Shown here one piece after another: positions 834-12,729 of a DNA stretch of 50,471 nt; the first letter of the stretch is position 1; every line of letters begins with the position of its first letter. Source of the stretch: Kushneria aurantia DSM 21353 (lineage in GTDB: Bacteria > Pseudomonadota > Gammaproteobacteria > Pseudomonadales > Halomonadaceae); contig NZ_KB907888.1 of the NCBI RefSeq assembly GCF_000382245.1, positions 1 to 50,471 of the forward strand, given 5' to 3'. The notes below the pieces were generated by a model, which did no database searches, was not told where the DNA came from, and worked only from the letters and a program-made list of their open reading frames with translations. The translations under genes and the position numbers were made by a program.

Positions 834-1037
834 TCAACCTTTATTGCCGCCCTCGTCGGTTTCGGTTTCGACCCGCTCCTGCTGGATGCGCTGGTAAATT
901 TCCTCGCGATGAACCGAGACATTACGCGGCGCATTGACGCCAAGGCGCACCTGGTTGCCCTTGACGCCCAGTACAGTGACGGTAATTTCATCGCCGACCA
1001 TGAGTGTCTCGCCTACCCGGCGAGTCAGTATAAGCAT
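834..1037 (-). CDS. csrA: Carbon storage regulator CsrA (RsmA)
   Basis: A 67-residue CsrA, the normal family length. It starts [10 protein letters not shown], with the beta-strand core and the RNA-binding residues L4 and R44 (in the block [13 protein letters not shown]) intact. CsrA is a dimeric RNA-binding protein that binds GGA motifs in 5' leaders and blocks or activates translation; CsrB/RsmZ-type sRNAs titrate it. The start at 1037 is preceded by AAGGAGGTCAGC; a longer reading from 1088 would add 17 residues foreign to the family. A likely antagonist sRNA lies in the same window at 10892-11106. The order lysC - csrA - tRNA-Ser - tRNA-Arg is a conserved gammaproteobacterial arrangement. 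Confidence 0.98.
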
Positions 1038-2555: not shown

Positions 2556-5162
2556 TTACCGCCCGAGCCGGTCGGCAATCCATTGGCGCGCTGCCGCCAG
2601 GGCGTCGTCCAGCCCCGCCACATCGCTACCGCCAGCCTGCGCCATATCGGCCCGGCCACCACCGCGACCGCCGACCTGCGGGGCGATGGCGCCCACCAGC
2701 TGCCCGGCGTCGATGCGCGCGGTGAGATCCTTCGTCACCCCGACGATCAGGTTGACCTTGTCGTCACCGGCCACGCCCAGCACCGCCACGCCGGAGCCGA
2801 GACGATTTTTCATCTGATCCATCACGCCGCGCAGCTCCCTGGGGCTGACGCCCTCCAGACGGCGCGTCAGCACCTGCACGCCGGCGATCTCCTCGGCCTC
2901 GTCGAGCATGTCGTTACCCGCCTGACTGGCCAGCTTCGAACGACTGCGCTCCAGCTCGCGCTCCAGATCTCGATTGCGCTCGACAAGCGCAGCCACTTTC
3001 GCTTCGAGCTGCTCGGGCCGAGTGCGCAGCTCATCGGCCAGCCGCGCAAGCTGATCGCGCTGAGATTCAAAGCGCGCCAGCGCCGCCATGCCGGAGAGCG
3101 CCTCGACGCGGCGCACGCCGGCCGCCACGCCGGACTCACCGATCAGCTGTACGGGACCGACATCACCGGTGCGCGGCACATGAGTACCGCCGCAAAGCTC
3201 GATGGAGAAGTCATCGGTACCCATCGTCAGCACCCGCACGCTTTCGCCGTATTTGGCCTCGAACAGCGCCTGCGCGCCCAGCTCGCGCGCCTTGTCGAGA
3301 CTCATATGCCGGGTGGTCACCGGGGTATTGGCCAGCACCTGTCGGTTGACGATGTGTTCTACCTCGCGAAGCTGCTCCTCGGTGACCGCTTCCATATGGC
3401 TGAAATCAAAGCGTAGACGCTCATCGCTGACCAGCGAGCCTTTTTGTTGTACGTGATCGCCCAGCACCCGCCGCAGCGCCTCGTGCAGCAGATGGGTGGC
3501 GGAGTGGTGGCGCATGATCGCCTGACGCCGCTCGGCATCGACCTGCGCGGTGACAGGCGAGGACACCGGCAGTACGCCCTCGACGACCTCGCCGAAGTGA
3601 ACGCTGTGACGGCCGCGCTTTTGCGTGTCGCGTACCGCAAAACACACTCCCTCGAGAGTCAGCGTGCCGCAGTCGCCCACCTGGCCGCCGGCTTCGGCGT
3701 AGAAAGGCGTGCGGTCGAGCACCACCGCCCCGCTCTGCCCCGCCTCGAGCCGCTCGACCCGCTCGCCATCGTCGTTGAGCAGGGCCCGCACCTCGGCCTC
3801 GCCGGTGAGATGTTCATAGCCGATGAAGGTACTCTCCCCTTCCAGCTCCAGCTGCACCTCGAGCCGGGCGCCAAAGCGACTGGCGGCGCGAGCACGGCTG
3901 CGCTGTGCCTCGAGTTCGCGCTGAAAGCCCACTTCGTCGAGCATGATGTCGCGCTCGCGGGCGATATCGGCGGTCAGATCGAAGGGGAAGCCGTAGGTGT
4001 CATAGAGTTTGAAGATGGTCTCGCCATCCAGGGTGGTACCGGTGAGCGATGCCAGCGCCTCGTCAAGCAGGCGCATGCCGTGATCCAGAGTGCGCGCGAA
4101 CTGCTCCTCTTCGCGCAGCAGCGTCTTCTCGATCAGCTCACGGCGTTCGCGCAGCTCCGGGTAGGCCTCACCCATCTCCGCGTCGAGCGCTCCCACCAGC
4201 CGATAGAAGAAGGGTTCGCGCACGCCCAGTTTGTGGCCGTGGCGCACCGCGCGGCGGATGATACGCCGCAGCACGTAGCCGCGCCCTTCGTTGGCGGGGA
4301 TCACGCCGTCGGCGATCAGAAAGGCACAGGAGCGGATATGGTCGGCAATCACCCGCAGCGAGGGCTGCTGAATATCGTTCTGGCCGGCGATTTCGGCCGC
4401 CGAGGCGAGCAGGCGGGCAAACAGGTCGATCTCGTAGTTGGAGTGCACGCCCTGCATGACGGCAGCGATACGCTCGAGCCCCATGCCGGTATCGATCGAG
4501 GGGCTGGGCAGCGGCGTCATCTCTCCGGAGGCGTCGCGGTCATACTGCATGAAGACCAGGTTCCACACCTCGATGTAGCGATCGCCATCCTCGTCGGGAC
4601 TGCCCGGGGGGCCGCCGGCAACCTCCGGGCCGTGATCGTAGAAGACCTCCGAGCAGGGACCACAGGGACCGGTATCTCCCATCTGCCAGAAGTTGTCTTC
4701 ATCCAGCCGCGAAAAGCGCTCGGAGCTGACACCGATTTCGTCGAGCCAGATGGCGGCGGCCTCGTCGTCACTCTCATGCACCGTGACCCATAGTTTCTCC
4801 GCCGGCAGACCGAGGGTGCCGGTCAGAAACTGCCAGGCGAAGTTGATCGCCTCGCGCTTGAAGTAGTCACCGAAGCTGAAATTGCCCAGCATCTCGAACA
4901 GCGTGTGGTGACGCGCCGTGTAGCCGACGTTGTCGAGATCATTGTGCTTGCCGCCGGCCCTTACGCAGCGCTGCGCCGAGGTGGCACGCACATAGGGGCG
5001 CGGGTCACGACCCAGAAACACGTCCTTGAAAGGCACCATGCCGGCGTTGGTGAAAAGCAGCGTGGGGTCGTTGTCGGGCACCAGCGAGCTGGAGGGCACC
5101 CGGGTGTGTCCGTGGTGTTCAAAGAATTCCACAAACGCTTGTCGTATCTCGGCGCTTTTCAT
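2556..5162 (-). CDS. alaS: Alanyl-tRNA synthetase
   Basis: Charges tRNA-Ala and edits mischarged Ser or Gly. The protein is 868 residues, full length for the family. The class II catalytic domain comes first (the [19 protein letters not shown] start and the [10 protein letters not shown] motif near residue 45). The editing domain follows, with its HxxxH zinc site H553-SAT-H557 and C657-GGT-H661. A leucine-zipper-like helix and the C-Ala domain ([17 protein letters not shown]) close it. The ATG at 5162 is chosen because GGAAAGAGC precedes it and [10 protein letters not shown] aligns with the family start; a TTG six codons earlier has no support. It sits between recX and lysC, as in Pseudomonas. 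Confidence 0.98.
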
Positions 5163-10517: not shown

Positions 10518-10841
10518 ATGACCTTCGTCGTCACCGAGAACTGCATCAAGTGCAAATATACGGACTGCGTGGAAGTCTGCCCGGTCGACTGCTTTTATGA
10601 GGGCCCCAATTTCCTGGTGATCCATCCCGACGAGTGTATCGACTGCGCGCTGTGCGAGCCGGAGTGCCCGGCCGAGGCAATCTTTTCCGAGGACGAGCTG
10701 CCCGAGGGCCAGGAGAAGTTCATCGAGCTCAACGCCGATCTGGCCGAGGAGTGGCCCAATATCAACGAACGCAGCGACCCGCCCGCCGATGCCAACGAGT
10801 GGAACGGCGTGCCGGGCAAGCTGGAAAAGCTGGAGCGCTGA
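10518..10841 (+). CDS. fdxA: Seven-iron ferredoxin FdxA
   Basis: Small electron carrier with one 3Fe-4S and one 4Fe-4S cluster. Of its 107 residues the N-terminal half carries the cluster ligands: [18 protein letters not shown] (residues 9-26) and [12 protein letters not shown] (40-51). The acidic C-terminal extension ([15 protein letters not shown]) is typical of the Azotobacter FdI / Pseudomonas FdxA type. An AGGAG precedes the ATG. In Pseudomonas fdxA follows mutS and borders rsmZ and rpoS. Here mutS is conserved upstream, and a GGA-rich RNA gene lies convergent downstream, but rpoS is absent. Confidence 0.97.
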
Positions 10842-10891
10842 CGCCCCTTCCCAACCCCACAAAACCGGCCTTTGTGTCGGTTATTGAAACC

Positions 10892-10915
10892 AAAAAAGGC
10901 GGCCCTGGGGCCGCC
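10892..10915 (-). terminator. Terminator of the RsmZ-like RNA
   Basis: Stem GGCGGCC / GGCCGCC followed on the minus strand by TTTTTT. It has no T-run in the fdxA direction, so it serves the minus-strand transcript. With no minus-strand CDS upstream before eno's own terminator, it implies a separate RNA gene. Confidence 0.85.
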
Positions 10916-11106
10916 CACTGCATCCTGCTTCCTTGAGCCTGTCCGTTTGCTCCGGGTCCCTTGGCGCCTTCCATGCAGGGAGATCGAATCCATTCGATAC
11001 CCGGCGCGCCATTAAAAAAAGAAGATTTTGTGCTGTCCCGTCACCTTGCGTGACGGTCATCGCCACTGCCTGCGGCAGTTGGCAAAGGGCCTGTTCCATT
11101 GGCCCG
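10892..11106 (-). ncRNA. rsmZ: RsmZ/CsrB-like CsrA-sequestering small RNA
   Basis: No protein gene lies between fdxA and eno. The minus strand here shows nine GGA motifs in about 215 nt. Several sit in hairpin loops: GGGCC / GGCCC closing AATGGAACA (11087-11105), ATCGAA / TTCGAT closing TGGA (10983-10998), and GAGC / GCTC closing AAACGGACAG (10935-10952). Near the 3' end the run AAGGAAGCAGGATGC contains the CsrB core CAGGATG. Two further stable stems lie at 11038-11056 and 11065-11079. The RNA ends in a GC-rich terminator with six U (10892-10915). A weak -10 (TAAATT, 11114-11119) sets the 5' end near 11106. The position next to fdxA matches rsmZ of Pseudomonas. Such RNAs titrate CsrA, whose gene is 10 kb away. 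The 5' end and the family call are inferred. Confidence 0.72.
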
Positions 11107-11196
11107 GACGAGAAATTTATTGCGGATCAGGTCTGTCCCGCAGATGTTTTTTCCGCTCAACATCCCTTGCGACATTGACGACCTTTCCGGGTAGTA

Positions 11197-11212
11197 GAGA
11201 TTGATAAATCTC
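11197..11212. promoter_or_regulatory. Palindrome upstream of the sRNA
   Basis: Arms GAGATT / AATCTC are separated by GATA, about 100 nt upstream of the predicted sRNA start. GacA-controlled rsm genes carry an upstream activating palindrome. This one does not match the Pseudomonas consensus TGTAAG-N6-CTTACA, so its role is open. Confidence 0.25.
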
Positions 11213-11305
11213 CGCCGTCATCGACTGAGTCTTATGGTGGGTGCCGGGCTGCCGGGGGGTCAAGCGACTGATACAGGATTCGTAAAATTCAAGCACTCAT
11301 GCATT

Positions 11306-11335
11306 AAAAAATCCGGTCGCACCCACGACCGGATC
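11306..11335 (-). terminator. eno terminator
   Basis: On the minus strand stem ATCCGGTCG / CGACCGGAT closes a 6-nt loop and is followed by six T. It lies 35 nt beyond the eno stop codon. The sequence between it and the sRNA promoter region holds no other gene that I can see. Confidence 0.9.

Positions 11336-11370: not shown

Positions 11371-12729
<1,359 letters not shown>

Follow-up and report, generated by a model that had tools for sequence, protein, structure and literature searches.

An RsmZ-like, CsrA-antagonist-type RNA family between eno and fdxA in the Halomonadaceae, apparently Gac-free in Kushneria

Results

A predicted RNA with a terminator of its own lies between eno and fdxA

The window, the whole 50,471-nt stretch of Kushneria aurantia DSM 21353 DNA analysed here (contig NZ_KB907888.1), carries the ferredoxin gene fdxA on the plus strand (ORF at 10518–10841) and the enolase gene eno on the minus strand (ORF at 11371–12714, GTG start). 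Between them, on the minus strand at 10892–11106, an earlier note had proposed an unannotated RNA of the RsmZ/CsrB type. This RNA is convergent with fdxA, its 3′ end lying ~50 nt from the fdxA stop codon, and it closes with a Rho-independent terminator (10892–10916, minus) made of an 8-pair stem at 10897–10916 followed by U6. The earlier note saw no upstream protein gene that could use it, and eno is served by a separate predicted terminator (11310–11335, minus) that is conserved in the same-genus alignment. The presumed partner, the 67-residue CsrA, is encoded at 834–1037 (minus), about 10 kb from the RNA as had been stated; it matches PF02599 with 90.7 bits, the sole match in the genome, and csrA is single copy in 18 of 18 genomes.

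Recounting the 215 nt from 10892 to 11106 returned the nine GGA motifs reported for the minus strand (first G at 11097, 11038, 10991, 10972, 10959, 10953, 10944, 10932 and 10925) and one GGA on the plus strand of the same stretch. The CAGGATG core is present too, and the three hairpins named earlier (11087–11105, 10983–10998 and 10935–10952) all appear in predicted folds, a GGA in each loop. Mononucleotide shuffles of the stretch (2000) average 4.9 motifs (fraction at least as high as nine, 0.034) and dinucleotide shuffles (500) average 5.6 (0.038); of the overlapping 215-nt windows in the 50 kb, both strands counted, 0.36% have at least nine GGA. By itself this excess is only mildly unusual and, the count alone being weak, it is the comparison with relatives that decides. 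The fold z-score is −2.62 for 10892–11130 and −2.19 for a 325-nt version (10892–11216). For the 125-nt core at 10892–11016 it is −0.44, no better than shuffles, so folding stability alone is no proof of structure.

The RNA is widespread in the Halomonas family

The earlier note had judged the RNA diverged from Pseudomonas RsmZ, and the Rfam covariance scan bears this out: the window RNA has no match at the gathering threshold or up to E 10, the only Rfam match over the stretch being to a microRNA model on the opposite strand (E 7.6). A DNA search with the RNA found it in nine of 38 genomes, eight of the same genus (its own included) and one other, but missed two same-genus genomes, and a covariance model was therefore needed. 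Relatives of fdxA are present in all 121 family genomes searched. At 53 of 70 family loci eno lies opposite fdxA, giving an intergenic region (10 of these from Kushneria); the other 17 gave none because eno was not opposite fdxA within reach, three of them being cut by contig ends. Our extraction yielded a GGA-rich RNA from 34 of the 43 other-genus regions, representing 13 genera, and with the window's genus the RNA is found at the eno–fdxA site in 14 of 24 family genera.

From these we built R1, a covariance model of the 3′ domain of the RNA, using 27 other-genus sequences only; the window's genus was excluded, as were seven of the 34 extracted RNAs (L042, L054, L057, L058, L060, L062 and L078). 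The training RNAs are 170–196 nt long with 9–12 GGA each. R1 matches the window at 10894–11016 on the minus strand with 80 bits (E 3.5e-21, 117 kb searched), the sole match in that genome at E 0.001, and thereby marks the conserved core, or 3′ domain, at 10892–11016 (minus). The R1 RNA is present in all ten Kushneria genomes, with scores of 68.7–87 bits at the nine other loci and a core of 116–122 nt. Second, weak matches in five of the ten (best 28.6 bits), like those of 24–32 bits elsewhere, are taken as chance.

Among 80 named loci, R1 placed the RNA beside fdxA in Halomonas lysinitropha, Larsenimonas, Cobetia, Modicisalibacter tunisiensis and Vreelandella jeotgali, and ~1.2 kb from fdxA in Halomonas sp. 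M20; there was no match in two Salinicola records or in Modicisalibacter ilicicola. Outside the family, the same loci gave five weak matches of 14.7–21 bits. Four of these (in L148, L115, L127 and L109) are in the right orientation and within ~240 nt of the end of fdxA; the remaining one, also in L148, has the opposite strand.

Several loci depart from the single-copy arrangement. Larsenimonas suaedae (L088) has four tandem copies on the minus strand beside fdxA (2994–3114, 3197–3319, 3363–3483 and 3560–3669), each an R1 match of 55.6–83.4 bits; the array is a local expansion of the sponge, and its copies were not reported by Tandem Repeats Finder. The eno–fdxA regions L057 (G051) and L058 (G015) are 1279 and 1166 nt long. 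Their eno strand carries 46 and 39 GGA and the opposite strand 8 and 9, and R1 matches each region once, which would fit either a sponge grown much larger or additional, diverged copies. A 65-bit match in G024 (L182, G024:C7:19838-19961) lies ~16 kb from fdxA, giving the RNA a different neighbourhood in that genome. The region of G039 (L059) contains about twenty copies of the 7-nt repeat GCCACCT and, after them, GCCAACA repeats; a GGA-rich RNA was not seen in it. G040 has a second GGA-rich stretch away from fdxA (L211, G040:C18, ~350–512, minus), with a GacA box and a terminator and no Rfam match; related sequence occurs on contigs C131 and C78 of G040 and, weakly, in G010, G106, G023 and G115. 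A DNA search with this second RNA, an insensitive method, found none in six Kushneria genomes, and another sponge RNA may exist in the genus.

The fold covaries and the GGA sites stay unpaired

The core opens with an outer stem and an inner stem that bears GGA in its apical loop; a single-stranded GGA, a hairpin with GGA and a further single-stranded GGA follow, and the terminator closes it. The 27 other-genus RNAs align well, and RNAalifold, applied to their structure-blind MAFFT alignment, predicted 41 pairs, 20 of them with pairing kept through two-sided changes. When 44 sequences (43 distinct) were fitted to R1, 94.3% of paired cells held standard pairs, compared with 37.7–47.0% in slid controls in which the partners were moved by 1–3 columns, and 26 of the 32 R1 pairs showed changes on both sides; among loci with matches, L027, L034, L073, L057, L058 and L088 are left out of this alignment. 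Because its rows had been fitted to R1, we recounted the pairing on the 20 rows that R1 had not seen and obtained 91.8% versus 37.0–42.9% (slides 1–2); for the ten Kushneria rows the figures are 89.9% versus 37.5–44.9%. The terminator helix (helix 6) is paired in 98.2% of cells across the 43 distinct sequences. The window RNA itself forms 28 of the 32 pairs, and in nine of these both partners differ from the majority of 24 training rows. The eno–fdxA RNA is thereby shown to be a conserved, covarying structure with a terminator.

Five GGA sites recur in this structure (all minus). The first hairpin holds one in its apical loop (10989–10991, conserved in 38 of 44 sequences), and the internal loop that follows the inner stem holds another (10970–10972, 44 of 44). 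A third is single-stranded between the hairpins (10957–10959, 42 of 44), a fourth is looped out in the second hairpin, GAGC...GCTC (10942–10944, 40 of 44), and the fifth is single-stranded before the terminator (10930–10932, 39 of 44). The earlier note had named loss of the GGA loops in close relatives as evidence against its reading, and the loops have not been lost: within Kushneria the five sites, in the same order, are kept in 10, 10, 10, 9 and 9 of ten sequences. The window core has seven GGA, five of them fully unpaired, and each of the ten same-genus sequences has 4–6 fully unpaired GGA. A sixth, partly paired site occurs in 30 of 44 sequences, and at that column in none of the ten from Kushneria. 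Stems that change while remaining paired, around GGA loops that stay constant, are what selection for CsrA binding predicts.

A conserved block upstream suggests an earlier start

Within the Kushneria intergenic region conservation is seen in the core and in a promoter-like block, CTTGACC...CATAAG (11231–11264, minus), the stretch between them being variable and, in several species, AT-rich. CTTGACC is found in all ten same-genus intergenic regions, ACGAATCCTG precedes the block in seven of ten genomes, and a longer exact motif is common to five of the ten, the window not among them. The distance from block to core is 249–257 nt in eight of the ten genomes and 280–282 nt in two. The block suggests a transcription start near 11225, and with a start just after it the window RNA would be ~334 nt long with 14 GGA. 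Its putative 5′ part (11017–11225, minus), proposed from the block and its near-fixed distance, is sequence-variable between species and contains seven GGA, including the one in the hairpin at 11087–11105; shuffles of 11016–11225 gave 4.0 (0.07) and 5.2 (0.21) for the seven observed, an excess that is not significant. Since the stretch between block and core is variable and, in several species, AT-rich, a start nearer the core is also possible. Of the extent first proposed, 10892–11106, the 3′ end agrees with the terminator and the 5′ end at 11106 lacks support, the conserved landmarks being the cross-genus core at 10894–11016 and the block at 11231–11264.

We considered and rejected a standard sigma-70 promoter at the block as unsupported: a sigma-70 consensus scan returned no site and the spacer of the block, 20–21 nt, is unusual. 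Such a spacer resembles that of MerR-type activated promoters, and partial dyads can be seen by eye in the block region; a MerR-type or a sigma-32 promoter would be candidate readings. In other genera, a TTGAGA element is separated from the −10 element by exactly 16 nt in 15 of 34 RNA regions.

Signs of GacA control in relatives are missing in Kushneria

The GacA site of Pseudomonas aeruginosa rsmZ, TGTAAG-N6-CTTACA, is placed at −196 in a passage of PMC4950607. With at most two mismatches, the box TGTARGN6CYTACA is present in 33 of the 34 RNA-bearing regions of other genera (22 exact, nine with one mismatch and two with two), and in 25 of the 34 it starts 185–191 nt (~188 nt) before the RNA start, which in other genera is an estimate from the −10 element. 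The sole region without the box (L042) is from G018, a genome without a GacA-level match, whose single exact box is at an unrelated position. In the window's genus the best box has 3–5 mismatches in all ten regions, no better than shuffles, and there is no exact box genome-wide in any of nine Kushneria genomes, as against 1–9 in twelve GacA-bearing genomes. A reversed control pattern gave 0–2 matches per genome, so that box counts of 1–2 are not above chance and the position of the box is the stronger evidence.

GacA itself was sought in 26 genomes, with Kushneria genome G004 left out. The GacA model scores at most 110.3 bits in nine of nine same-genus genomes, three of them single-contig, versus 243–293 bits in 15 others, of which ten pass the curated cut-off of 280 bits and five fall below it. 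GacA was also looked for beside uvrC and was not found there. We read the 66–110-bit matches in Kushneria as paralogues, because GacA-bearing genomes carry secondary matches of similar strength. A search for GacS/BarA gave 115–289 bits in three Kushneria genomes and 602–665 in three others, none over the cut-off; GacA-bearing G012, also below it, scores 236 bits, as low as the window's genus, so that these scores make a poor case for absence of GacS.

Four GacA-bearing genomes, G012, G058, G115 and G120, lack the RNA at the eno–fdxA site; their regions (L041, L040, L074 and L075) are short, no strong R1 match occurs elsewhere in them, and the sponge may have been replaced. G016 has neither a GacA-level match nor an RNA at this site. 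Together with the RNA-less GacA genomes, it indicates that the coupling of GacA and RNA is not strict. With no GacA-level protein and no box found in nine Kushneria genomes, the window RNA is not simply another Gac-Rsm RNA, and in this genus something other than GacA probably controls it.

Pseudomonas rsmZ occupies the same place and strand

In a scan of 20 named loci, RF00166 (PrrB_RsmZ) was found in the four Pseudomonas loci, on the strand opposite fdxA and with its nearest base 58–239 nt past the fdxA stop codon. This agrees with the earlier statement that Pseudomonas rsmZ adjoins fdxA, and the place and strand are those of the window RNA. The window RNA does not reach the RF00166 gathering threshold (44 bits); of two relatives, one has 10.8 bits for RF00166 and the other 12.8 for rsmX (RF02144), both at full length with E >2 and far below threshold. 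Sequence similarity alone is no proof of kinship with rsmZ, whereas position and design favor common descent, and on that basis we infer that the two RNAs share an ancestor.

Discussion

We are confident, if short of certain, that in the Halomonadaceae the window RNA takes the part of rsmZ as a CsrA sponge, kept in Kushneria in genomes where neither GacA nor its box is found. What the earlier note proposed at heart, an RsmZ/CsrB-type RNA of the Halomonadaceae at the rsmZ position next to fdxA, is strongly supported; what does not carry over is the usual GacA controller, which is missing here. We infer that the RNA is transcribed and binds CsrA. More generally, a CsrA-antagonist-type RNA family of the Halomonadaceae, so far unrecognized, is well supported, with an apparently Gac-free version in the window's genus.

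In the mechanism that we propose, CsrA dimers would dock on several GGA loops and on single-stranded GGA sites of the RNA, and this sequestration would release the mRNAs that CsrA binds, as described for molecular-mimic RNAs in a passage of PMC7366521. In most RNA-bearing relatives GacA would control it through the box ~188 nt before the RNA. In Kushneria, where fold and GGA sites are maintained in the apparent absence of GacA and box, the sponge would have to be constitutive or otherwise driven, perhaps by a regulator acting at the block around 11231–11285. We lean, with some reserve, towards a genus-wide history in which the rsmZ-type sponge was kept and rewired after the loss of GacA, with CTTGACC...CATAAG as a possible new control site.

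The RNA could instead be a product of the eno 3′-UTR, released by read-through and processing. It is on the eno strand, P. aeruginosa RsmW is apparently derived from a 3′-UTR (as given in a passage of PMC4950607), and no sigma-70 consensus promoter was found before the RNA. Yet eno has its separate terminator, other genera carry TTGAGA elements and GacA boxes between eno and the RNA, and the CTTGACC block is conserved in that same interval in Kushneria. We regard such an origin as unlikely; it would be compatible with sponge function and overlaps with the reading that we prefer.

A second possibility is that the RNA is a relic that stopped working when GacA was lost and has drifted since. In Kushneria its 5′ part is poorly conserved, R1 scores are lower than in the training rows (69–87 versus 82–129 bits), helix 5 of R1 (three pairs) is mostly broken, and G016, likewise without a GacA-level match, is devoid of the RNA at the eno–fdxA site. 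Against decay stand the fold kept in all ten Kushneria sequences, their fully unpaired GGA together with double compensatory changes, and the upstream block at its near-constant distance. These point to continued selection, and we hold a relic to be very unlikely.

Less likely still is that the RNA acts mainly as an antisense regulator of fdxA with CsrA binding secondary, as a passage of PMC9788540 proposes for the dual-function RNA CsrR2. The RNA does converge on fdxA and ends ~50 nt from its stop codon, and the same source describes the fdxA-neighboring arrangement in Alcanivorax and Pseudomonas, but the terminator stops the RNA short of the fdxA coding sequence and the conserved parts are GGA loops and stems. 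The least likely alternative is a small protein gene, a 72-residue open frame at 10881–11099 (minus) with a possible inner ATG where the core begins, for although the frame is stop-free within the core in seven of ten Kushneria genomes and ATGGCGCGC is present in nine of ten, it has stops in the other three (L014, L015 and L056), the core lengths differ by non-multiples of three, and it is base pairs that changes preserve across genera.

The sponge reading sets the RNA beside several known systems. It shares with PrrB/RsmZ (RF00166) its position and strand just beyond fdxA, GGA motifs in loops and single strands, and a terminator, and the sister-genus GacA box near −188 recalls the −196 given for P. 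aeruginosa rsmZ (a passage of PMC4950607); it differs in going unrecognized by the Rfam model, in being possibly longer, and in belonging to a genus with no GacA-level protein or box detected. With CsrB and CsrC of enterobacteria it shares the many-GGA sponge design, with 14 GGA in 334 nt if it starts near 11225, a length similar to that of CsrB. Unlike them, it has no Rfam match, and UvrY/GacA-type control was not found in its genus. CsrB is credited with 18 CsrA sites in a passage of PMC7366521.

CsrR2 of Alcanivorax dieselolei is, in the portion of PMC9788540 consulted, likewise a predicted CsrA-related RNA opposite a ferredoxin gene, and its authors point out the fdxA–rsmZ parallel; it is described as antisense to the fdx gene itself, however, and our comparison with it is by description, not sequence. 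RsmW and RsmV of P. aeruginosa bind the CsrA family and are transcribed independently of GacS-GacA (passages of PMC7366521 and, for RsmW, PMC4950607). They are regarded as specific to P. aeruginosa and probably of independent origin, in a host that has GacA (PMC7366521, same passage), whereas in Kushneria it is the RNA at the rsmZ position itself that seems Gac-independent, and this across the whole genus.

For Halomonas anticariensis, a table of Gac-Csr systems excerpted from PMC7366521 enters the sponge RNA as 'Unknown'. The eno–fdxA family is a strong candidate for this missing entry and might be made a new Rfam family; among the matches listed, in openly licensed papers, none described a CsrB/RsmZ-type RNA of Halomonadaceae, and an earlier prediction is possible. 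A 2017 study (PMC5568370) states, in the part consulted, that all species with experimentally validated RsmA-regulating RNAs have GacA/S orthologues and that for Gac-less species there are only predictions. Kushneria offers a clean case, a homologue of Gac-controlled RNAs in genomes with no detectable GacA, which makes other drivers of a CsrA sponge directly testable. The rewiring, if true, would be a natural demonstration of a Csr/Rsm module passed to a different input.

Two further features of the window lie apart from the RNA. Pieces of group II introns occur on the minus strand at both contig ends (76–245 and 50178–50250), which suggests that the assembly was broken at a multi-copy intron. 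Near csrA, two tandem tRNA genes with identical scores lie on the minus strand at 383–456 and 483–556.
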